DNA from: a virus
Direction: 5' to 3' (one strand)
Length of the DNA stretch: 64,000 nt
Virus record (IMG/VR): IMGVR_UViG_3300046171_000182
Location: 1-64,000 of that record
Notes under the pieces: model-generated
Databases searched by the model: none
Told to the model about the DNA's origin: nothing
Seen by the model: the letters and a program-made list of their open reading frames with translations, nothing else
In this document: positions 9,784 to 20,209 of the stretch, in pieces
Layout of the letters: each line of letters begins with the position of its first letter
How positions within the stretch are numbered: position 1 is the first letter of the stretch
Position numbers and translations under genes: made by a program

Positions 9784-11598
9784 ATGGCAACTATTATAGA
9801 CCTCGGTAAGTTAAGATTTCATTTTGCAGGTGAGTGGAATTCCGGCACCACATATGAAATTAACGACATCGTAAAGTACGGTGGTAACGTATACGTTTAT
9901 AGTAACATAGCAAGGACAAATGGTAACTTACCAACCGACCCTGAATATTGGGCATTGATGGTTGAAGGGTTTAAGTTTAGATCAGACTGGGATGGTGCAA
10001 CACAATATCGTGTTGGTGATGGTATTGCGCATGGTGGTGTTATATACATTGCTGTTGCAGATTCGCAAAACCAAGTTCCACCTAACGCAACATATTGGAG
10101 TCAGTTTGCTGATGGTATCCAATGGGAAGGTGAGTGGGCTAATACTAGTGTTTATCAAGCAAGTGATGTTGTAAAGTACGGCGCTCAAGCATATATCGCT
10201 AAACAAGATGTCCCGGTTGGAACCGATCCTACCAACGCTACATATTGGGAAACATTTGTAAGTGGTATCAGTGCTGAAGGCGTATGGAATGTCGGTACAG
10301 ATTATGTCCCTGGAGACTTAGTTGCATACGGTGCAAACATATATCGTTGTATCGCTAACACTACAGCTAACATTCCAACCAATACCACCTACTTTGAATT
10401 ATTTCAAACCGGGAATGACTTTCAGGGTGTCTGGTCAGCAGCTACTAGCTATCTAATTGGACAAACTGTTCGTTACGGTGGTAATGTATATAAAGCTAAA
10501 CAAGATAATCTTGCTTCTACTCCAGACACCTTTACCAATGCTTGGGAAATCTTTACAACTGGAGTAAACAACAGAGGTAATTGGACATCTACTACTCAGT
10601 ATCATATAAATGACGTTGTTGCTCATGGTGGTAACACATACATTTCTCTTATCTCTCACACAGCTGGTGTGTTTGACACAGACTTAGCAGCTGGTAAATG
10701 GCAAAAATTTAATAGTGGTGTACGCTATATGGGTGCCTGGACTTCAGGTACTCAATATTTAAAAGATGACATTGTTAGTGAAAGTGTTAGTACGTACATT
10801 GCAAATCAAGATCACACTGCAGGCGCAGACTTCTTTATTGATTTTAATACGAATAATTATTGGAATAACTTTGTGGTTGGTGCTAGCTATGTGCTTCCAG
10901 CAACAGCAGGAAATGCAGGTAAATATCTACAAACACCAGATGGAACAAACTATAGTTGGCAGTTTGCAGGTGCTAATGATAAAATCTTTTATGTGGCAGA
11001 AGATCCAACAAGTTCTGCAGATGATTCAGATCACGGTGCAACAGTAGACTTTGCTTTTGCAAGTGTAAGATTTGCTTGTGATTACATCAACTCAGATCTC
11101 GCAAACAGAACGCCTGCTACTATCTTTATTAAAGACGGTGTATATAACGAACAACTTCCAATCCATATTCCGGCCGAGGTAACTATTGTAGGTGACGGAC
11201 AACGTAACTGTGTTATTCAACCAGATACAACTACAGACATTGGTTTTGGTGCTGGTATATCTGGTGATGGTACAACACCAAATAACGAACAAACAATGTT
11301 CTTTGTGAACAGTGGTACAATGATTCTAGGTTTAAACTTAAAAGGTTTAACAGGATTTTCTTTAGGATCAACAACACCTACAGATCCTAACGATGCAACT
11401 ATCAAAGGTGTCTACTTTAGATTAGAACCAGGTGCTACGATTCTTAAATCACCATATATCAAAGAATCAAGCGCGTTCTCTTCAGGCGGTGTTGGCGCAA
11501 TTGTTGACGGTTCCTGTTGTCAACAGCGGTCTTCCTGGTTCAATGGTTTTCCATACATACACGCAAGTGCACGATGGAGGTATTGGTTTCTGGATTAA
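9784..11598 (+). CDS. Giant tail fibre/adhesin, N-terminal part (frameshifted gene, continues at 11516-13981)
   Basis: From ATG 9784 the product begins with seven modules of about 50 residues following 'W.s.t.Y..gDiV.yGg.vY.a......t..YW..f..G' (residues about 9-375). These resemble the carbohydrate-binding CBM5/12-type fold used in phage adhesins. Next comes a linker 'GKYLQTPDGTNYSWQ' and the start of a beta-helix-like region ('ATIFIKDGVYNEQLPIHIP'). At 11512-11515 one extra base (TTCCTG for expected TTCTG or similar) throws the frame; the last residues from about 'CCQQRSSWF' on are out-of-frame. With the base removed, it joins the second half to make a protein of about 1398 residues. Confidence 0.7.
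   Translation: MATIIDLGKLRFHFAGEWNSGTTYEINDIVKYGGNVYVYSNIARTNGNLPTDPEYWALMVEGFKFRSDWDGATQYRVGDGIAHGGVIYIAVADSQNQVPPNATYWSQFADGIQWEGEWANTSVYQASDVVKYGAQAYIAKQDVPVGTDPTNATYWETFVSGISAEGVWNVGTDYVPGDLVAYGANIYRCIANTTANIPTNTTYFELFQTGNDFQGVWSAATSYLIGQTVRYGGNVYKAKQDNLASTPDTFTNAWEIFTTGVNNRGNWTSTTQYHINDVVAHGGNTYISLISHTAGVFDTDLAAGKWQKFNSGVRYMGAWTSGTQYLKDDIVSESVSTYIANQDHTAGADFFIDFNTNNYWNNFVVGASYVLPATAGNAGKYLQTPDGTNYSWQFAGANDKIFYVAEDPTSSADDSDHGATVDFAFASVRFACDYINSDLANRTPATIFIKDGVYNEQLPIHIPAEVTIVGDGQRNCVIQPDTTTDIGFGAGISGDGTTPNNEQTMFFVNSGTMILGLNLKGLTGFSLGSTTPTDPNDATIKGVYFRLEPGATILKSPYIKESSAFSSGGVGAIVDGSCCQQRSSWFNGFPYIHASARWRYWFLD
9811..10890 (+). repeat. Seven coding modules of about 50 residues (CBM5/12-like)
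   Basis: The encoded modules each open with a Trp (GEWNSGTTY, SDWDGATQY, GEWANTSVY, GVWNVGTDY, GVWSAATSY, GNWTSTTQY, GAWTSGTQY) and close with 'YW..f..G'. DNA-level identity is moderate, so these are diverged repeats rather than a recent expansion. They probably bind surface glycan in a row. Confidence 0.7.
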
Positions 11599-13981
11599 AG
11601 ATAACGGTCTTGCTGAGATTGTATCTTGCTTTACTTACTATTGTGATATGGGATTTGTATCAAGTGGTGGTGGTAAAATTCGTGCGCTAAACTGTAACAA
11701 CAGTTACGGAACGTATGGTACTATCAGTACAGGTTACGATAGTGACGAACTTCCAGTAAATGGTTACATGTATGGTGATACACTAACATATGATCCTTCA
11801 TCGCTAACATCTTCTGACGGATTTACGGTTGGTGATACTATTACAGGTCCGGCAAAGACTGGTAGTAGAGTTGTAACAGATATGAGTATTGCTACTCAAG
11901 CTGTTATTACTACTAAGTTAGATGCTACCGTATCAGCTGTCACACAAGCAAGCCCAGGACAAGTTACAACTTCAGCTGCTCATGGATTTGAAACCGGTCA
12001 AAGTATTAAGTTTACCGGTGTGGGTGGTATGACAGAATTAAATGGTAATAGTTATACTATTACCGTAGTAGATACAACAAACTTTACAATTGGTGCTGAT
12101 ACCACAGGATTTGCATCTTTCACATCAGGTGGTACAGCCACTCTCGGTGGAGCTCACGGTCTATCAGACGGTGATATGATTTCATTTAGTAATGTTGGTG
12201 AAACAGCATGGCAAACACTTCTAGGTGATTATGCAGCTGCCGATAAACGAGCTTGGTATGCAGATATACAAGATAGTAACTCGTTTAAGCTAGCTTCAAA
12301 CTATGACTTAACTAACTATTTTGATACGAGATCAGAAGCTGGTTGGGGTTTTGTCATTGTAAACTTCACAGATGCTACACGATCTAATCCAGTTCGAGTA
12401 ACCGCACCAAGTCATGGATTTTCTTCAGGCGATCAAATGACTGAAGTCAAAGATGTTGTAGGTATGACCGAACTAAACGGTAATAACTATTATGTTAGCG
12501 TAATTAATGCAAACACAATAGATCTTTACTCAGACGCTGGATTAACAACTGCTGTTAATGGTGTTGGCTATAATTCTTACACATCTGGTGGTAATGGTAC
12601 AAGAACACTAACAGGTACATCACTAACTGCGTGTGATTTTAGAGTTGATGATGCTTTAGTTGCAACAGTTAAAAACATTCAGACAAACCTAGTAACTAAC
12701 CACAGACTAATTATATCAGATCAAAAACGAGGTCTATCAGGACAAACAATTAAAGTCAATGTTGGTCCCCCAGAATATTTGGGAACAGGGAACAGATTCT
12801 ACTTTAACGGTCAAATTAATCTAGCGTTTAATGGCTATGATGAACGTCAATATATCTTTGAGCAGAACGATGCATCAAATGTTGGGCATCCAATGTATCT
12901 TGCTGATACCGCAAACTCAACTGGCGGCGCTAATGCATGGTCAACTGGTGTAAGTTATTATTTAGATGGACAGCCAGTAGCTGACTTAGCAGCTTATGTT
13001 TCAGGATTTGCAGCAGCTACTGCTAGAGAAGTAAGATTCAAGATTGCTGCAGGACAAAGTGGATCATTACCATCAGTCTATATGTGCTGCCATACTCATG
13101 CAAATATGGGTGATGGACAGTTATATATAAATGCAGCAAGTGCAACTGAAAAAGAAAGATTTATTGGTAACCATCCAGTATTCTATCCATTCTCCGTCGG
13201 AGATTCGATTGATGCTCAAGATGCTCAGGGTGCAGTTCTTGCTGGAAATGGAAACTTAGGTCAATTCGGTTTCTCACTTTCTTTAGGGGGATTAAAAGAA
13301 GAGCCAAGAGCAGGTGGTAGTATCCAGTTTACTACTGGACCATCATATGACAGTGATAACTCAACTTATCTAAGTAATCCAAGATTAGGTGAAGATGATC
13401 GTAGTTATATTATCACATCAGTAAGTGGATATGACTCAAGTAATGATCCGAGAGTTGGTGGTACAGCCACTCTAACACTGAGCCAAGAAAAATTAAATAC
13501 TGACCCAGCATATTATGGTCAGCACTTTAACATTAGATATAACTACTCACAAGTTCGTATGACAGGTCACGACTTCTTGAGTATTGGTACAGGTGGTAAA
13601 TCAACTACTAACTATCCAGGTGAACCAACTCAAGCAGCTGCACAAGGTAACGAAGTTACAGAGACACTTCCAGGTCGTGTTTATTATGCAAGTACAGACC
13701 AAGATGGTAACTTTAGAGTTGGTAACTTCTTTAGAATTGATCAGGCAACTGGTCGAGCTACATTGGATGCAAGTGCATTTGATCTCTCTGGTTTGACATC
13801 ATTGAGACTTGGTTCAATTGGTGCTCAGTTAGGTGAAAATATTAATGAGTTTAGTGCTGATGGCACTCTATCCGGAAACAGCAACACGGCTGTTCCAACA
13901 GAACAAGCAGTTAAGACATATGTAGATAATAGACCCGCGGCCATCTCGGCGTCTAAAGTTACCTTTATAGGAACATTTTAA
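11432..13981 (+). CDS. Giant tail fibre/adhesin, C-terminal part (same gene as 9784, after frameshift)
   Basis: The frame is open from 11432, but genuine coding in this frame begins at about 11516, where 'VVNSGLPGSMVFHTY' follows on from 'GVGAIVDGS' of the preceding frame. The region encodes a right-handed beta-helix-like segment, two copies of a beta domain with 'HGF..GQ.I.F..V.GMTELNGN.Y.I.V.....F' (about 12000 and 12420), and a C-terminal phage fibre end 'TAVPTEQAVKTYVDNR', a pattern common at fibre C-termini. There is no independent ribosome-binding site, so this is not a separate gene. Confidence 0.7.
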   Translation: MLRFLNHHISKNQARSLQAVLAQLLTVPVVNSGLPGSMVFHTYTQVHDGGIGFWIKDNGLAEIVSCFTYYCDMGFVSSGGGKIRALNCNNSYGTYGTISTGYDSDELPVNGYMYGDTLTYDPSSLTSSDGFTVGDTITGPAKTGSRVVTDMSIATQAVITTKLDATVSAVTQASPGQVTTSAAHGFETGQSIKFTGVGGMTELNGNSYTITVVDTTNFTIGADTTGFASFTSGGTATLGGAHGLSDGDMISFSNVGETAWQTLLGDYAAADKRAWYADIQDSNSFKLASNYDLTNYFDTRSEAGWGFVIVNFTDATRSNPVRVTAPSHGFSSGDQMTEVKDVVGMTELNGNNYYVSVINANTIDLYSDAGLTTAVNGVGYNSYTSGGNGTRTLTGTSLTACDFRVDDALVATVKNIQTNLVTNHRLIISDQKRGLSGQTIKVNVGPPEYLGTGNRFYFNGQINLAFNGYDERQYIFEQNDASNVGHPMYLADTANSTGGANAWSTGVSYYLDGQPVADLAAYVSGFAAATAREVRFKIAAGQSGSLPSVYMCCHTHANMGDGQLYINAASATEKERFIGNHPVFYPFSVGDSIDAQDAQGAVLAGNGNLGQFGFSLSLGGLKEEPRAGGSIQFTTGPSYDSDNSTYLSNPRLGEDDRSYIITSVSGYDSSNDPRVGGTATLTLSQEKLNTDPAYYGQHFNIRYNYSQVRMTGHDFLSIGTGGKSTTNYPGEPTQAAAQGNEVTETLPGRVYYASTDQDGNFRVGNFFRIDQATGRATLDASAFDLSGLTSLRLGSIGAQLGENINEFSADGTLSGNSNTAVPTEQAVKTYVDNRPAAISASKVTFIGTF

Positions 13982-14001
13982 TAATTTAAGGAAAATTAAA
14001 A

Positions 14002-15525
14002 ATGACACAATCTCGACTTGCGTCTGCTAAAATTACTAAGAACACAAACCAATTAGTGTATACTGTTCCTGCAGGTAAATCTTTAGTAGGCTCTCTTTTT
14101 ATAAGAAATTTTAATGCTGATGGAAATGCAGCAACCATAGATATCGCAACTACACAAGGTACTCTTGGCGCAGACTTCCAAGAAGCTATTTTGACTAGTA
14201 ATACAACTAATTTCACTAATAATGCTACTGTTCCTATAGGTCAAGATATTCAAGGCGCGCCTTTAGCTCAAGGTGGTAGACTTACCGGTGATTTTAGAGC
14301 TAACTATAGTTATGGTAATCAGTATGCTCATTATAATGAAGCTACTGATACCTGCACGTTTAACGTATATAACGACCAACATGGTAGCGGTCAATATATT
14401 ACGAACAACCAGTATATGGAAGGTAATTATCAGATTTCAGGGTTTTATGGAACAACTGATTATATGATGATTCAGGAAAATAGGCGTGTAAGAAAATTTA
14501 GCGCTCCCCCCTGGACTTTTAGCACCAGTGGGAATTTTTCTAGTTCTAGTAGTCCTTATCTTTCAGGTGGATGGGATGGTAATGATCTAGACTATTATCA
14601 ATATGGCGGTCAAGGTTATAAAGACGGTTATATGTCTATGAATGATAATGGTTACATTACTTACTTGTATAATATTGATCAAAGTACATCGTTTAGTAGT
14701 GGTAGTAAAGTAAATGAAACAAATACTTCTCAATCTTTTTATTGGCAAGAAAACCAGCTTGGAGGAAAGGTTACTAAAGGTTCACTTTCTATAATTCCAA
14801 CAGCAAAAAGAACTAGTTCCCAAGGATTGTGGTTTGTTGTGCACGGAAATTACAACAGTAATGGTAGTATGTGTATGCAATGGATTCCTTTCTATGACTC
14901 TTCTGGAAATATTAGAACAAATTCTAGTAGCAGAGCTGGTTGGTATGGACAAGTTAATGCTTTGGCAACAACGGATAATGAATCCGAGTGGTATTGGATA
15001 CGTCCTGTAGGTGACTACGTTTATTGCGCTTCAGCATCTCAAGATGTATTTAGAGCGCCTCTTTCTTCTGGTCTAGAGTGGCAAAATCAATCTAATTGGT
15101 CTAAAGTTACTTCTAGTGTAGTACCTTCTGGAAAAACTATTAACGAACACTTTCCGTTTATAGAAACTCCTGAAGGCATTGGTTATGGTGCTTGCACAGA
15201 TGGAAGCATTATTACTAGTTTAGATGATGGTGCAACTTGGTCTCAAGTGGATGTTGCAACAATGACAGGGATTACTACAACAGCAGGTGCCCAAGCAGCC
15301 GGTAAAGATTCGAAAGGTGCATCTGCAATTTACTCAGCTGATGGAAAATATGAGACGTCTAAAGCTATTAGAGGAAAATTAGAAGATGCTGTTGAAGTTG
15401 ATATGAATCTTGCTGCTTCAGGACATTTAGAGCATAGAGGACTAATACTTAATGCAGGTGACAAAGTTTATGTTCAATCATCCGAAGATGGTGTAGTAGC
15501 TCAACTTTATGGATATGAGGAGTAA
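14002..15525 (+). CDS. Tail fibre or tail-tip protein with BNR-like segment
   Basis: The ATG at 14002 is preceded by TAAGGAAAATT. The 507-residue protein has an N-terminal beta domain (about 1-75, 'KITKNTNQLVYTVPAGKSL'), a long Tyr/Asn/Ser/Gly-rich central region, and a C-terminal 'SIITSLDDGATWSQVD', which matches an Asp-box/BNR turn (S-x-D-x-G-x-T-W) found in beta-propeller sialidase-like adhesins. A single Asp box does not prove hydrolase activity. It is immediately followed by the glycine-rich adhesin, so it may form the fibre tip assembly. Confidence 0.6.
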   Translation: MTQSRLASAKITKNTNQLVYTVPAGKSLVGSLFIRNFNADGNAATIDIATTQGTLGADFQEAILTSNTTNFTNNATVPIGQDIQGAPLAQGGRLTGDFRANYSYGNQYAHYNEATDTCTFNVYNDQHGSGQYITNNQYMEGNYQISGFYGTTDYMMIQENRRVRKFSAPPWTFSTSGNFSSSSSPYLSGGWDGNDLDYYQYGGQGYKDGYMSMNDNGYITYLYNIDQSTSFSSGSKVNETNTSQSFYWQENQLGGKVTKGSLSIIPTAKRTSSQGLWFVVHGNYNSNGSMCMQWIPFYDSSGNIRTNSSSRAGWYGQVNALATTDNESEWYWIRPVGDYVYCASASQDVFRAPLSSGLEWQNQSNWSKVTSSVVPSGKTINEHFPFIETPEGIGYGACTDGSIITSLDDGATWSQVDVATMTGITTTAGAQAAGKDSKGASAIYSADGKYETSKAIRGKLEDAVEVDMNLAASGHLEHRGLILNAGDKVYVQSSEDGVVAQLYGYEE

Positions 15526-15530
15526 AATAA

Positions 15531-16385
15531 ATGAGTAGATATATAACAGGAACCGGCGGCGGTGGTACCGGTGGCGGTGGTGCCGGCGGAACTGTTCGTC
15601 AAGAACGATTCCTTACATCAGGAACTTTTACTGTTCCTTCAGGAGTAACTTCTGCTGAAGTTTTAGTTGTTGGAGGCGGCGGCGGCGGTGGTCGTGGATC
15701 TTCTTGGCAGATATCCTGCCCAGGTGGCGGTGGTCAAGGTGGTCAAGTTAAAATCGAAGTAGTTAATTTAACAGGAATATCGTCATGCGCGGTCATTGTT
15801 GGTTCAGGCGGTAGTCGCGCAAACGGCTCATCTAGTGATTCATATAATGGTCAACCTGGTGGTAGATCTTCTTTTAGTTACGGTGGCTCTTCAGTTGAAT
15901 GTGTAGGTGGTCGTCAAGGTGTCTGTGGTGGTGTTGGTGGACAAGGTGGACCACATTGGCAAGGAAATTATAACAACAGTCAATCTCCAGATGGTGATAA
16001 CTATGGAGAGTACAACGAAGCTTGGCATAATAGTAATGGCCATACTCGTGGTGCTGGTGGTCATGGTCGAAACAGTAGTGGTCATGGACACAATGCTAGA
16101 CAAGACGGAATGAATGGCATGGCTGGTTATGGCGGCGGCGGTGGCGGTGGCTACTACGATACTAACAACTATAATGGTTTTGGCGGCGGTGGTGCTGATG
16201 GAGGCGGTATTTCTACCAACTATGACTGGTGGCACGGTCAACCTGGAGCTAATAACACTAGCCAAGCTTATTTCAAAACAGGGCAACCCAACACAGGTGG
16301 CGGTGGTGCGGGAGGCAATTACCCAAATAATGAATATGGCGGCCATGGCGGTTCTGGTATCGTTATTGTCACTTATTCGGTTTAA
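15531..16385 (+). CDS. Glycine-rich tail-tip adhesin
   Basis: The 284-residue protein starts with a polyglycine stretch, then 'TFTVPSGVTSAEVLVVGG' followed by repeated Gly tracts (GGGGG, YGGGGGGGYY, GGGGADGGG). The 'sGtf.vP.gvt...v.vvGgGGgG' opening is the hallmark of phage glycine-rich adhesin domains. It is functionally analogous to gp38-type adhesins of T2/S16, where polyglycine-II helices support variable receptor-binding loops. Gly codons are mostly GGY, so the segment is much more GC-rich than its surroundings. It should be the receptor-binding tip. Confidence 0.7.
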   Translation: MSRYITGTGGGGTGGGGAGGTVRQERFLTSGTFTVPSGVTSAEVLVVGGGGGGGRGSSWQISCPGGGGQGGQVKIEVVNLTGISSCAVIVGSGGSRANGSSSDSYNGQPGGRSSFSYGGSSVECVGGRQGVCGGVGGQGGPHWQGNYNNSQSPDGDNYGEYNEAWHNSNGHTRGAGGHGRNSSGHGHNARQDGMNGMAGYGGGGGGGYYDTNNYNGFGGGGADGGGISTNYDWWHGQPGANNTSQAYFKTGQPNTGGGGAGGNYPNNEYGGHGGSGIVIVTYSV

Positions 16386-16396
16386 GGAGATACATA

Positions 16397-16888
16397 ATGG
16401 CAAATTTTAATATAATCCAACCTAAAGTAGCAGCTGATTCAGATGAAAGCTACAATCAACATATCATAAATGTAATTGTAGCTGATGATATGGCAGCTGC
16501 AGAATCTGTTACTGATACAGAAGTAAATTTAATTGTAGAAAAAACAGGAGAAGAAGGTATTGGATGGATATATAATCCTGATAATAGCTCAACTCCCTTT
16601 TCCGCGCCTGGAGTTGAAGTACCTGAAGGATTTGATCAAGCAGCTGCAAAAACACGTTTAAAACTAAATGTAAAACGAGAAGCAGCAATACGTATTGAAG
16701 CTCTTGCTTGGAAAATTGAAAGAGCAAGCGAGCAAGACGCAATTAATGGTACTACTACAATTAACGATGTTTATGCAGAAAGAGAAGCTATTCGAGTTAA
16801 AAGCAATGAAATTGAAACTGCTATAGATGCTGAAACAGATGATTTAACGATATACACTATGGGTACCGTAGTTAAGTTTGACGAATAA
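16397..16888 (+). CDS. Putative tail fibre assembly/chaperone-like protein
   Basis: ATG 16397 follows a TAAGGAGATAC ribosome-binding site. The 163-residue protein has a small N-terminal domain (about 1-75, with 'GIGWIYNPDNSSTPFSAPG') and a long helical C-terminus (KREAAIRIEALAWKIERA, about 95-145). This architecture, placed directly after an adhesin, resembles tail-fibre assembly proteins of other phages, but I cannot align it with a named family. Confidence 0.5.
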   Translation: MANFNIIQPKVAADSDESYNQHIINVIVADDMAAAESVTDTEVNLIVEKTGEEGIGWIYNPDNSSTPFSAPGVEVPEGFDQAAAKTRLKLNVKREAAIRIEALAWKIERASEQDAINGTTTINDVYAEREAIRVKSNEIETAIDAETDDLTIYTMGTVVKFDE

Positions 16889-16933: not shown

Positions 16934-17464
16934 ATGGCACTTAGAGATCATATAAAAGAAAATCATGATCTTGCAGAAAATCACCCCTTTGTAAAACTTT
17001 TGTTTTCGGGGGGTGTTTCCTCAAAAATTTATGCTGAGTATTTGTTTAATCAATACTTAATGTATAATGTGTTAGAAAAAATTGCTTTAGAACAAGGCTT
17101 GTTAGAAGGTGTAGAAGACGTAATAAGAGCAAAATTAATATTAGAAGACTTTATAGAATTAAAAGAAACAGATATTAAAGTTCATGATTGTTCGTTAGAC
17201 TACATTAAATATATACAAACAAAAGTATCTAAAGACAATTTAATGGCACACATTTATGTGCGGCACTTTGGCGATTTATTTGGTGGACAAATGATGAAAA
17301 AAGTTGTTGTAGGCTCCGGTAAGATGTATGATTTTAAAAATAGATCAGAACTTATTCAAGAGCTAAGAAGTCGATTAGATGATGGTTTAGCAGACGAAGC
17401 TAATACAGTTATGCTTTGGGCAATTGAATTATTTCACGCTTTGGAAAAACGATTTGATCTTTGA
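16934..17464 (+). CDS. ho1: Heme oxygenase (biliverdin-forming)
   Basis: The 176-residue protein matches heme oxygenase: 'HDLAENHPFVK' near residues 11-21 aligns with the proximal-histidine segment (H-x-x-AEN-x-x-F) giving His11 as heme ligand, and 'HFGDLFGGQ' at 111-119 is the distal-helix GDLSGGQ-type signature. The enzyme opens heme to biliverdin IXalpha, CO and iron using reduced ferredoxin. It is slightly shorter than bacterial HOs (about 200-240). The downstream bilin reductase overlaps it, so biliverdin is presumably passed on. This is an auxiliary metabolic gene; known phage homologues occur in cyanophages and in uncultured marine phages. Confidence 0.85.
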   Translation: MALRDHIKENHDLAENHPFVKLLFSGGVSSKIYAEYLFNQYLMYNVLEKIALEQGLLEGVEDVIRAKLILEDFIELKETDIKVHDCSLDYIKYIQTKVSKDNLMAHIYVRHFGDLFGGQMMKKVVVGSGKMYDFKNRSELIQELRSRLDDGLADEANTVMLWAIELFHALEKRFDL

Positions 17465-18104
17465 AAAACTTGTGAACACTAGTGAAAAAATGAGAGAGCT
17501 TTTAGAATCTCTTTCTACTACTAAACACACCCACGATTTCCCCTGGCCTGCAACTACATACTATTCTCCTGACATTTGGCGTAGGGCCGACTTAGATATT
17601 ATTGATGCACGAGAAGATCGCAAATTGTGGATGATGCATTTGTGTGTCTATCCACATGTTAACGATCCTGCGCCGATTTACGGTTTTGATATTATTGCAG
17701 GACCAAATAAAGTAACCGGAGCATTTCACGACTTTAGTCCTATCGATCCTAACAGTCACATATTATCACAATTCAAAGAGAATGTACACAGTTTTATTCC
17801 ATCAAAGAAAAGAGAACTACCTGACTGGGCAAAGGCTATATTCAGCGGTTCTATGGTTTCAGCTGGAAATGTTAGAGATCCTGACGAACTACAAGAACTA
17901 TTAGATCTTGCTGTCAATAATTTAGAATACTTTGTAAATAATATAGGTCTTAGCACTGACAACGACTATACAGATAAACATAATTGGTACGCAATCAATC
18001 AGAAGAAGAATCCACATACTCCAAGAGTAATGGAAAATATGGGTGTAGCTCCTGATGTGGTTAGGAAATATATAGACGAATGCTTATTTCCTGAGATAAG
18101 CTAA
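17454..18104 (+). CDS. pcyX: Ferredoxin-dependent bilin reductase, PcyX/PebS-like (phycoerythrobilin synthase)
   Basis: The sequence aligns with the PcyA family: 'MHLCVYPHVNDPAPIYGFDIIAGP' corresponds to PcyA around His88-Asp105 (His62 and Asp79 counting from TTG 17454, same 17-residue spacing), and near the end 'NPHTPRVMENMG' matches the K-N-x-x-T-R-R-V-L helix. PcyA Glu76, needed for exovinyl reduction to phycocyanobilin, is not conserved (a hydrophobic residue at that spacing), as expected for enzymes yielding phycoerythrobilin. TTG 17454 has GGA 8 bases upstream and overlaps ho1; ATG 17490 is the alternative, and TTG 17424 the longest. PcyX proteins were described from uncultured marine phages thought to infect alphaproteobacteria. 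It converges with the minus-strand carbamoyltransferase, ends overlapping by 21 bases. Confidence 0.8.
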   Translation: MIFEKLVNTSEKMRELLESLSTTKHTHDFPWPATTYYSPDIWRRADLDIIDAREDRKLWMMHLCVYPHVNDPAPIYGFDIIAGPNKVTGAFHDFSPIDPNSHILSQFKENVHSFIPSKKRELPDWAKAIFSGSMVSAGNVRDPDELQELLDLAVNNLEYFVNNIGLSTDNDYTDKHNWYAINQKKNPHTPRVMENMGVAPDVVRKYIDECLFPEIS

Positions 18105-18986
18105 CACTGCTCCTTCTGCTGATCCAGTGTCACTTGGGTTTGGCGGAATGTATAAGTTATCCCATGTTTTACCAACTAGCTTTGGCATTGACTTGTTAAA
18201 AGCAACGCCTCCGCTTATAACTAGATTTTTACTAGTTGTAATTTCCCTTGCATATCTTAATATGTAAGTTACGCATTGTTCAAATATTCCTCTTGTTGCA
18301 CTTGCTATTTCTTTATTGCCTTTACCCCACCACATTCCTCGTGCACCACGATGAAAGTTTATTTTAAATTTAGGCATAGGTTCCCATTTTTTTATTATAT
18401 CGATTTCAATATGGGTTCTTAGTAAAGAAAATGGTGTAAATGAATGTGACAGTTCTTCAAACTTTGCTTCATCTTGCTGCGGCTTTAATCCTACACGATC
18501 TGTCATAGCAGAATAAAATAATCCTAGGCTATGAGGATATTTTGAAGACTTTAGTTTTTTAAGTTTACCGTTTTCTGCTTTCCATATCGTAGTACAATCA
18601 AACTCTCCTATACTATCAAAGACAACTACTGTTGCATCTTTAAAACCGCTTTTATAAAAAGCCGCAGCATGAGATTCGTGATGACCGACATATTTCCATT
18701 TGCAGTTTATATTAAGATCTCGTAAGTATCTTTTAACGTTATTTCTTTTAAAAGGATTTTTTTGTCCTGCGAGAAATTGTCTAATTGCTTTTAAGTAAGG
18801 ATTTTCATACCAAATAACTAAATCCGGTTTCCCGCTTTTGTTAGCTTCCTCTATACATTCTAATGTATGTCTTGGGCCTTTACCTGAAATAGTATTTACA
18901 AGTTTAAATCTATTTCCTAAGTTATTATCTTTAAAGATAGCTACAGACCAATCATGCCCGTTCTTTGACATACCCCATATTGTCAT
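18084..18986 (-). CDS. Carbamoyltransferase (NodU/CmcH/TobZ family)
   Basis: The 300-residue minus-strand product has the family's ASKHA-type features: 'GHHESHAAAFYKSGF' near residues 101-115 (the HHxxHA metal/carbamoyl-phosphate motif), 'ATVVVFDSIGEFDCTTI' (phosphate-binding strand-loop), and a C-terminal 'NLVISGGVAFNKSMP' with 'PPNPSDTGSAEGA' matching the adenylate-binding end. Such enzymes carbamoylate a hydroxyl on a sugar or secondary metabolite. It lacks the extra C-terminal domain of TobZ/NodU, as phage versions often do. It overlaps the cupin gene (ATGA) and forms a two-gene minus-strand operon. Confidence 0.8.
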   Translation of the reverse strand: MTIWGMSKNGHDWSVAIFKDNNLGNRFKLVNTISGKGPRHTLECIEEANKSGKPDLVIWYENPYLKAIRQFLAGQKNPFKRNNVKRYLRDLNINCKWKYVGHHESHAAAFYKSGFKDATVVVFDSIGEFDCTTIWKAENGKLKKLKSSKYPHSLGLFYSAMTDRVGLKPQQDEAKFEELSHSFTPFSLLRTHIEIDIIKKWEPMPKFKINFHRGARGMWWGKGNKEIASATRGIFEQCVTYILRYAREITTSKNLVISGGVAFNKSMPKLVGKTWDNLYIPPNPSDTGSAEGAVLAYLRK

Positions 18987-19360
18987 GCTTTACGTTTCTT
19001 TTCTCTTTGAGAGTCGCCCATAGAGACTCTGTAATTATCTTCAACTGAATCTGGTGTAGATACTTCTAATAATGTACCCTCTTCAATACAAATGACTTGG
19101 TGAGGAACTAAAGGTTTGTTTCTGTGAACCCCACCTGCTTCTAATCTTTTACGTTCAACGGATGCATCTACTGTATTGATAACTAGCACATCAAACACGC
19201 CACTCATCACATACCAAGTCTTATCTTTGTCTTTATGAAAGTGCATAGAAAACTTTGCACCTTTATTAAACTGCAAAAACTTTCCACAGTACTTGTCATT
19301 GGTTGCCCAAATAAACTCATGGCCCCAACCTTTTTCTATAAATCCTTCAAGTTGTGTCAT
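18983..19360 (-). CDS. Cupin-domain protein (mannose-6-phosphate isomerase type II-like)
   Basis: The 125-residue protein is a single cupin: 'KGWGHEFIWATNDKYCGKFL' at the N-terminus, metal-site motif 1 'FSMHFHKDKDKTWYVMSG' with His/His/Glu-like positions, and motif 2 'KPLVPHQVICIEEG'. The 'E.GWGHE' opening resembles sugar-phosphate isomerase cupins. It sits upstream of and overlaps the carbamoyltransferase, so a joint role in sugar modification is likely. Catalysis is unproven. Confidence 0.7.
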   Translation of the reverse strand: MTQLEGFIEKGWGHEFIWATNDKYCGKFLQFNKGAKFSMHFHKDKDKTWYVMSGVFDVLVINTVDASVERKRLEAGGVHRNKPLVPHQVICIEEGTLLEVSTPDSVEDNYRVSMGDSQREKKRKA

Positions 19361-19418: not shown

Positions 19419-19426
19419 TATAAATA
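19419..19426 (+). promoter_or_regulatory. T4-type late promoter box TATAAATA
   Basis: The 93-base gap between the divergent cupin gene and gp13 contains an exact TATAAATA 27 bases before the gp13 ATG. It should start the late neck-terminase transcript. No corresponding box is seen on the minus strand for the cupin gene. Confidence 0.8.
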
Positions 19427-19453: not shown

Positions 19454-20209
19454 ATGGCAGCTCCAGCATCAAGACAAGGATTCATCGATTATTGTCTTCG
19501 TAGACTTGGCGATCCAGTTATTGAAATAAACGTGGATGACGATCAGCTAGAAGAACGTGTAGACGATGCCCTGCAAGTGTATCAAGAATTTCATTCAGAT
19601 GCGACCATTAAAACTTATCTTAAGCATCAGGTAACTCAAACTGATGTAGATAATAGTTACATTCCTATATCATCTGATATTATATATGTATCTAGATTAT
19701 TACCTATTAATTCTTCATTTGGATCTTCACGTAATTTCTTTGATATAAAATATCAGCTGATGTTAAATGATATTGCTGATATGCAAAACTTTGCAGGTGA
19801 TTTAGCTTACTATGAACAACTGCAACAATATCTATCATTATTAGATATGAAACTAAACGGACATCCGCAAGTAGAATTTGCTAGACGACAAGATCGGCTT
19901 TATATACATGGCTCTTTTGCTGAAAAGGAAATAAAAGTAGGAGATTTTGTAGTTGCAGAGATATATCAAATAGTAGATCCGGATACTTTCACAAGCGTAT
20001 ATGATGATATGTGGTTAAAAGAATATGGAACTGCTCTTATTAAACAACAATGGGGTGCAAACCTAATTAAGTTTGAAGGAATGCAATTGCCAGGCGGTGT
20101 TACATTAAATGGTCGGCAAATATTTGAAGATGCATTAGGAGAAATAACACAACTCAGAGAACGAATTAGATTAGAACATGAACTTCCCCCTAACTTTTTT
20201 GTAGGTTAA
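19454..20209 (+). CDS. 13: Neck protein gp13
   Basis: The 251-residue protein begins 'RQGFIDYCLRRLGDPVIEIN' with 'LEERVDDALQVYQEFHSD', the conserved N-terminus of marine T4-like gp13. It ends with 'IFEDALGEITQLRERIRL'. gp13 sits with gp14 at the head-tail joint and closes the filled capsid. An AAAGGAC ribosome-binding site precedes ATG 19454, and gp14 follows after one base. Confidence 0.85.
   Translation: MAAPASRQGFIDYCLRRLGDPVIEINVDDDQLEERVDDALQVYQEFHSDATIKTYLKHQVTQTDVDNSYIPISSDIIYVSRLLPINSSFGSSRNFFDIKYQLMLNDIADMQNFAGDLAYYEQLQQYLSLLDMKLNGHPQVEFARRQDRLYIHGSFAEKEIKVGDFVVAEIYQIVDPDTFTSVYDDMWLKEYGTALIKQQWGANLIKFEGMQLPGGVTLNGRQIFEDALGEITQLRERIRLEHELPPNFFVG

Follow-up and report, generated by a model that had tools for sequence, protein, structure and literature searches.

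The overlapping genes for a heme oxygenase (HO) and a ferredoxin-dependent bilin reductase (FDBR) described here raised two questions: which kind of reductase accompanies the HO, and what a bilin would be for in the infected cell. The second question, which a sequence-only reading of this DNA had put forward, is a real one, but it had already been posed in print; the available part of Wegner et al. 2024 (PMC11480375) called the purpose of the phage pair still enigmatic. We analyzed the pair in the window (the whole 64,000-nucleotide stretch of DNA under study), which is contained in a marine T4-like virus record of 135 kb (G000), and in relatives from 48 viral loci and from loci L055-L058 in bacterial MAGs.

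Both open reading frames were present and Pfam-supported, and they overlapped as the sequence-only reading had stated (Table 1). The HO matched PF01126 (E=1.5e-15) and PDB entry 1we1, which is Synechocystis HO-1 (E=4e-10). It carried the proximal His at His11 and, with G113-D114 and G117-G118, the GDxxGGQ motif. The proximal His was found in 30 of 31 aligned rows, and the remaining row, L005, ended with its contig. The reductase matched PF05996 (E=2.5e-10) and was the sole match to this family across the 135,206 bases of the record. Its mechanical open reading frame opened at TTG 17424; the start is likely TTG 17454, because the conserved protein starts one codon before IFEKL and relatives (L003 and L006) have ATG at that position.

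Table 1. Features of the HO-reductase locus and its surroundings (positions in the window)
Feature	Position	Strand	Remarks
Adhesin/tail-fiber-like gene	11432-13981	+	Travels with HO type A
Adhesin/tail-fiber-like gene	14002-15525	+	Travels with HO type A
Adhesin/tail-fiber-like gene, Gly-rich	15531-16385	+	PF21722
Adhesin/tail-fiber-like gene	16397-16888	+	Travels with HO type A
Heme oxygenase, 176 aa, type A	16934..17464	+	Proximal His11, GDLFGGQ distal-helix motif
HO/PcyX overlap, 11 bp	17454..17464	+	Seam where HO types are exchanged
PcyX-type ferredoxin-dependent bilin reductase, 216 aa	17454..18104	+	PF05996, 5OWG, tree, residues, model
Carbamoyltransferase N-domain protein	18084..18986	-	PF02543, E=1e-20
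Cupin/sugar-isomerase-like protein	18983..19360	-	Cupin_2, E=1e-4 (below cut-off); phrog_7851, E=7e-39
TATAAATA, T4-late-promoter-like	19419..19426	+	28 bp before neck gene; none near HO start
Head-tail adaptor, gp13-like neck protein	19454..20209	+	phrog_211, E=3e-40; first gene of conserved structural module

The reductase had been called PcyX/PebS-type, and only the PcyX part of that label stood when residues and phylogeny were examined. The closest solved relative was 5OWG (PcyX_EBK42635; E=2e-54), whereas cyanobacterial PcyA matched at only 1e-8. As shown by a residue alignment, the positions of PcyA His88 and Asp105 were kept in 24 of 24 PcyX rows, as had been claimed. The position of PcyA Glu76 was Asp in all 24 rows (Asp48 in the window protein), so the reported loss of Glu76 was correct and is more exactly a change to a PcyX-specific Asp. 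The position of PcyA Asp220 was Pro, again in 24 of 24 rows. In the 5OWG chain, the Asp at position 63 corresponded to Asp55 because chain position 236 is entry residue 228 (an 8-residue construct offset), and the available part of Wegner et al. 2024 (PMC11480375) describes Asp55 as a PcyX-specific residue that is absent from a phage enzyme making PCB instead. Cyanophage PebS and PcyA are likewise phage-borne FDBR family members, but PebS had Asn at the His88 position (both rows) and cyanophage PcyA retained Glu76 (all three rows).

The phylogeny that had been proposed as a check was run with PcyA, PebS, and PcyX rows, and it placed the reductase within the FDBR family in the PcyX clade. Specifically, in a tree of 32 rows, which had a partial row for 5OWG and none for CB_2 PcyA or the alphaproteobacterial PcyA of the AX clade, the window reductase fell inside a 24-row PcyX clade (93/94) together with 5OWG and Pelagibacter phage Mosig. 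The 16-row clade that contained 5OWG and Mosig had support of 97/97, and the window PcyX belonged to a distinct subclade of 10 T4-like rows (100/100). PcyA formed a separate clade of four rows (one cyanobacterial and three cyanophage; 96/93), and the two PebS rows formed their own clade (99/94). An AlphaFold2 model of the reductase (17 rows; pLDDT 90) superposed on 5OWG with an rmsd of 1.3 A over 169 residues (Z 22.2). PcyA chains gave a higher Z (24.2) with a larger rmsd (2.3 A), and the 5OWG chain has only 181 modelled residues. Two other identities were considered and rejected: PebS, on the basis of His62 at the His88 position and a tree placement apart from PebS, and PcyA, on the basis of Asp48 in place of Glu76 and a position outside the four-row PcyA clade. 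By residues and tree, the window reductase is a PcyX and not a PebS.

Both genes were under purifying selection, with dN/dS values of 0.056-0.147 in 10 of 10 PcyX pairs and 0.076-0.136 in 3 of 3 HO pairs. Of 49 loci, 43 had HO ahead of PcyX, and the six others were contigs that opened inside PcyX. In L022, HO was about 0.6 kb upstream of PcyX, with no overlap. Family, fold, active-site residues, clade, purifying selection, and the operon overlap together indicated that the pair is a functional two-gene bilin cassette with the enzymatic identity HO plus PcyX, to which we assign a probability of roughly 0.88. This identification was weakened by the identity of the window PcyX to its Mosig and podovirus-like relatives, which was only 44-50%. 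The HO would open host heme to yield biliverdin IXalpha, Fe2+, and CO, and PcyX, with host ferredoxin, would convert biliverdin via 15,16-dihydrobiliverdin to phycoerythrobilin (PEB) in two two-electron steps. The enzyme pair required for the previously proposed route from heme to biliverdin and then to PEB was therefore identified, and we infer both PEB as the probable product and host ferredoxin as the donor. A host electron donor was assumed because no Fer2 ferredoxin was found in record G000.

That HO and PcyX occur as a pair, that PcyX makes PEB, and that a SAR11 phage carries both genes were known already, and the window is a further member. Published accounts, in their available parts, include PMC11480375, PMC10151467, PMC13197396, PMC13193486, PMC13198022, and PMC7892664. 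The cassette described from uncultured phages of the ocean (Ledermann 2016, 2018, via the available parts of PMC13197396, PMC13193486, and PMC11480375) shares with the window the HO-PcyX gene pair, the PcyX residues, the 5OWG fold, and an occurrence outside cyanophages; the window PcyX differs in belonging to a separate subclade and is 44% identical to Mosig PcyX. Like the window, Mosig itself (EXVC030M; MT647606) is T4-like and has overlapping HO and PcyX genes (HO identity, 34%). By kinship to Mosig, the window phage may likewise infect Pelagibacter (SAR11). In Mosig, the pair directly precedes the neck gene, whereas two minus-strand genes lie in between in the window. In addition, 2OG-Fe(II) oxygenases precede the Mosig pair and Mosig has its own Fer2 ferredoxin, unlike the window's record. 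The Mosig gene annotated "ferrochelatase" had no Pfam match. In the case of the three-gene hemO-pcyA/X-valaS cassette (Wegner et al. 2024, PMC11480375, in its available part), the HO-PcyX pair resides in myophage contigs, as in the window, but the window's record has no AlaS. The full triplet was found in the T4-like locus L017, where a 5-aminolevulinate synthase gene (10646-11851; TIGR01821, 551 bits) directly follows PcyX on the other strand.

The genomic setting was largely as the sequence-only reading had described it. The phage was T4-like (Kyanoviridae-type), with a T4-type terminase that was 72% identical to that of Phage C48C1 and 44-47% identical to those of the listed cyanophages, and with a phrog_211 neck gene. 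Photosystem genes had been reported as absent, and no match to the reaction-centre protein family PF00124 was found in record G000. The pair did sit between adhesin-like genes and the neck gene, which follows the two minus-strand genes and is 40% identical to the neck gene after Mosig PcyX. No DNA-level relative of the 10-30 kb part of the window was found among named phages. The TATAAATA motif, which we take to be T4-late-promoter-like, occurred 11 times in the window versus 9.8 expected, a count that was not above chance, and all 11 sites were on the plus strand (5175, 9100, 9365, 19419, 23790, 27718, 31362, 33468, 39505, 41362, and 42164). Several of these sites were 25-75 bp ahead of structural genes, as late promoters would be. 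A promoter scan around the cassette gave no signal above that of shuffled sequence.

Comparison of the T4-like loci indicated that HO and PcyX have had separate histories. PcyX was 68-100% identical among 19 T4-like rows, whereas HO fell into three types, A, B, and C, with only 35-45% identity between types. Identity inside the types was 96-98% for A (the window, L007, and L014), 57-100% for B, and 42-70% for C, which includes one cut row. L007 and L008, for example, had PcyX proteins that were 98% identical and HO proteins that were 42% identical, and the values for L002 and L006 were 99% and 41%. In a tree of HO, type A was outside a group of B, C, Mosig, and MAG-contig rows, with modest support (85/90).

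The change occurred at the seam between the two genes. In the window-L004, window-L006, and L002-L006 comparisons, nucleotide identity was about 0.5-0.7 ahead of the PcyX start and 0.83-1.0 from there on, and in L007-L008 the jump was within 30 bases before that start. For the 11 loci with 4 kb upstream (L005, L010, and the duplicates L003 and L012 were left out), upstream DNA in common was 0.26-1.00 for same-type pairs and 0-0.41 for different-type pairs, and 7 of 20000 label shuffles reached the observed contrast. The adhesin block at 11432..16888 was common to L007 in full and to L014 in part; where HO was of type B or C, the only matches within the block were partial ones to 11432-13981. 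In type-A pairs (n=3), dS was 0.09-0.22 for HO versus 0.44-0.75 for PcyX. The neck and tail genes downstream of PcyX kept PcyX-like identity. Together, the upstream sharing, the identity jump, the dS contrast, and the downstream identity identify HO as the moving part, which by these comparisons appears to travel with the adhesin/surface block, and PcyX as the fixed part, which appears to stay with the structural block. PcyX would thus anchor one end of the structural module, and HO, the final gene in the adhesin/surface block, would be swapped with that block.

Such swapping probably reflects hitch-hiking, in which adhesin blocks recombine with a breakpoint where the conserved PcyX begins, carrying HO along without selection on HO itself. 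The tracking of upstream DNA by HO type, the step from about 50% to 83-100% identity, and an HO dS below the PcyX dS in the same three pairs all fit this explanation. It leaves unexplained, however, why three old HO lineages have all been kept functional, and loci of types B and C share 22-41% of their upstream DNA across types.

The pair was also found in other kinds of phages. A second group of 23 loci (L022-L042, L044, and L046) had PcyX proteins with 44-50% identity and a GC content of 0.46-0.55, and none of these loci matched T4-like neck genes. Three loci sampled from this group (L035, L039, and L040) carried an internal virion protein of phrog_511 and tail-fiber families; the nearest named relatives of the phrog_511-type protein were from Vibrio phages, the best having podovirus locus tags. 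A tyrosine integrase gene was present downstream of HO-PcyX in the podovirus-like contigs L024, L027, L031, and L035, which are possibly temperate carriers of the pair. The integrase gene in L035 (17118-18197; phrog_1, E=3e-53) lies a few kb after the pair. L039, L040, and L042 gave no match to the integrase query, despite equally long downstream sequence.

In the MAG loci L055-L058, hsp20-like and clpS-like genes were followed by HO and PcyX, and Pfam searches of L057 and L058 revealed a nitrilase-like (carbon-nitrogen hydrolase) gene between HO and PcyX. The Hsp20-ClpS-HO-PcyX order spans 4352-8681 in L057. Because its 335 kb contig also carries a terminase, we interpret L057 as a jumbo phage that ended up in a bacterial bin; by gene order, L055, L056, and L058 may be jumbo phages as well. 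Searches elsewhere yielded little: the Mosig PcyX query had no match on plasmids, and among 385 genomes from the class to which G027 belongs, three had FDBR matches, namely G027 (its own cassette contig), G321 (two distant FDBRs), and G380 (a match below the cut-off). Two single-cell-associated sequences, Marine virus AG-345-D19 (MH319721) and AG-345-P14 (MH319765), had HO matches of 32% and 26%, respectively, and no PcyX match.

On balance, we lean toward HO-PcyX being a transferable cassette of three phage kinds, namely T4-like phages, integrase-bearing podovirus-like phages that are potentially prophage-borne, and a 335 kb jumbo-phage-like kind with hsp20-clpS. HO would be exchangeable within the T4-like host-recognition block, PcyX would be fixed, and one reductase would work with three HO lineages that are 35-45% identical. 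A near-constant PcyX alongside three HO lineages argues for shared, diffusible biliverdin rather than for a complex in which HO and PcyX bind each other specifically.

As for what the bilin is for, our tentative choice is that the pair turns over heme and iron during infection, although we hold it at somewhat below even odds. HO would free iron, PcyX would act as a biliverdin sink that pulls the reaction, and the pigment itself would need no target. Members of two 2OG-Fe(II) oxygenase families were found in 10 of 25 cassette records, and four such oxygenases are annotated less than 4 kb upstream of the Mosig HO. In five of the 10 records with matches (the longer ones), with the two families merged by hand and Mosig supplying nine of the 14 matches, 9 of 14 were within 5 kb of the cassette versus 1.6 expected, and 5 of 14 were within 3 kb versus 0.97. 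Because of this sampling, the hand-merging, and the share from Mosig, the neighbors are only suggestive of an iron link. The iron purpose was weakened further because neither family had a match in G000, 15 of the 25 cassette records had none, and tail-fiber neighborhoods may gather 2OG-Fe(II) genes anyway. Moreover, iron could be freed by HO without any PcyX, and yet it is PcyX that is conserved more strongly. The only such enzymes in G000 were of the Asp/Arg hydroxylase and TauD types, far off at 65.8-68.8 kb. A stretch of L050 (1792-6422; 65.8-70.4 kb of the record) encodes an Asp/Arg hydroxylase, two TauD dioxygenases, a methyltransferase, an FMN reductase, and a peroxiredoxin, a gene run that resembles a cluster near the Mosig tail-fiber genes.

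An unlikely alternative to iron turnover is that the pair destroys host heme, either to disable host respiration or as a source of antioxidant bilins, and that the release of iron is incidental. The position of the cassette beside hsp20 and clpS (stress and proteolysis) in L055-L058 and its presence in integrase-bearing phages would suit this purpose, but the 5-aminolevulinate synthase gene beside PcyX in L017 would raise heme supply, which fits heme destruction poorly. Less likely still is that PEB loads onto a photoreceptor or a bilin-binding globin of the host and so alters host behavior during infection. SAR11 is not known to have phytochromes, PEB is not known to yield a photoactive phytochrome, and no GAF or phycobilisome-type protein was found in any of the 10 phage records searched, including G000. 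The points on the side of the chromophore or signal reading were the higher conservation of PcyX relative to HO, the joint presence of both genes in 43 of 43 loci reaching upstream of PcyX, and the PCB product of a related enzyme from a freshwater phage, which loads a phytochrome (PMC11480375, in its available part).

We found no account in print of HO exchange with the adhesin block, nor of the pair in podovirus-like or jumbo phages such as the 335 kb terminase contig, and these points appear to be new here; Ledermann 2016/2018 might contain part of either. The cassette would give these phages a light-harvesting pigment for which their hosts supposedly have no need. The swapping of HO with the adhesin block provides matched natural pairs that have a different HO and a common PcyX, and the integrase-bearing carriers may exist as lysogens, in which the effect of the pair would be measurable outside lysis.
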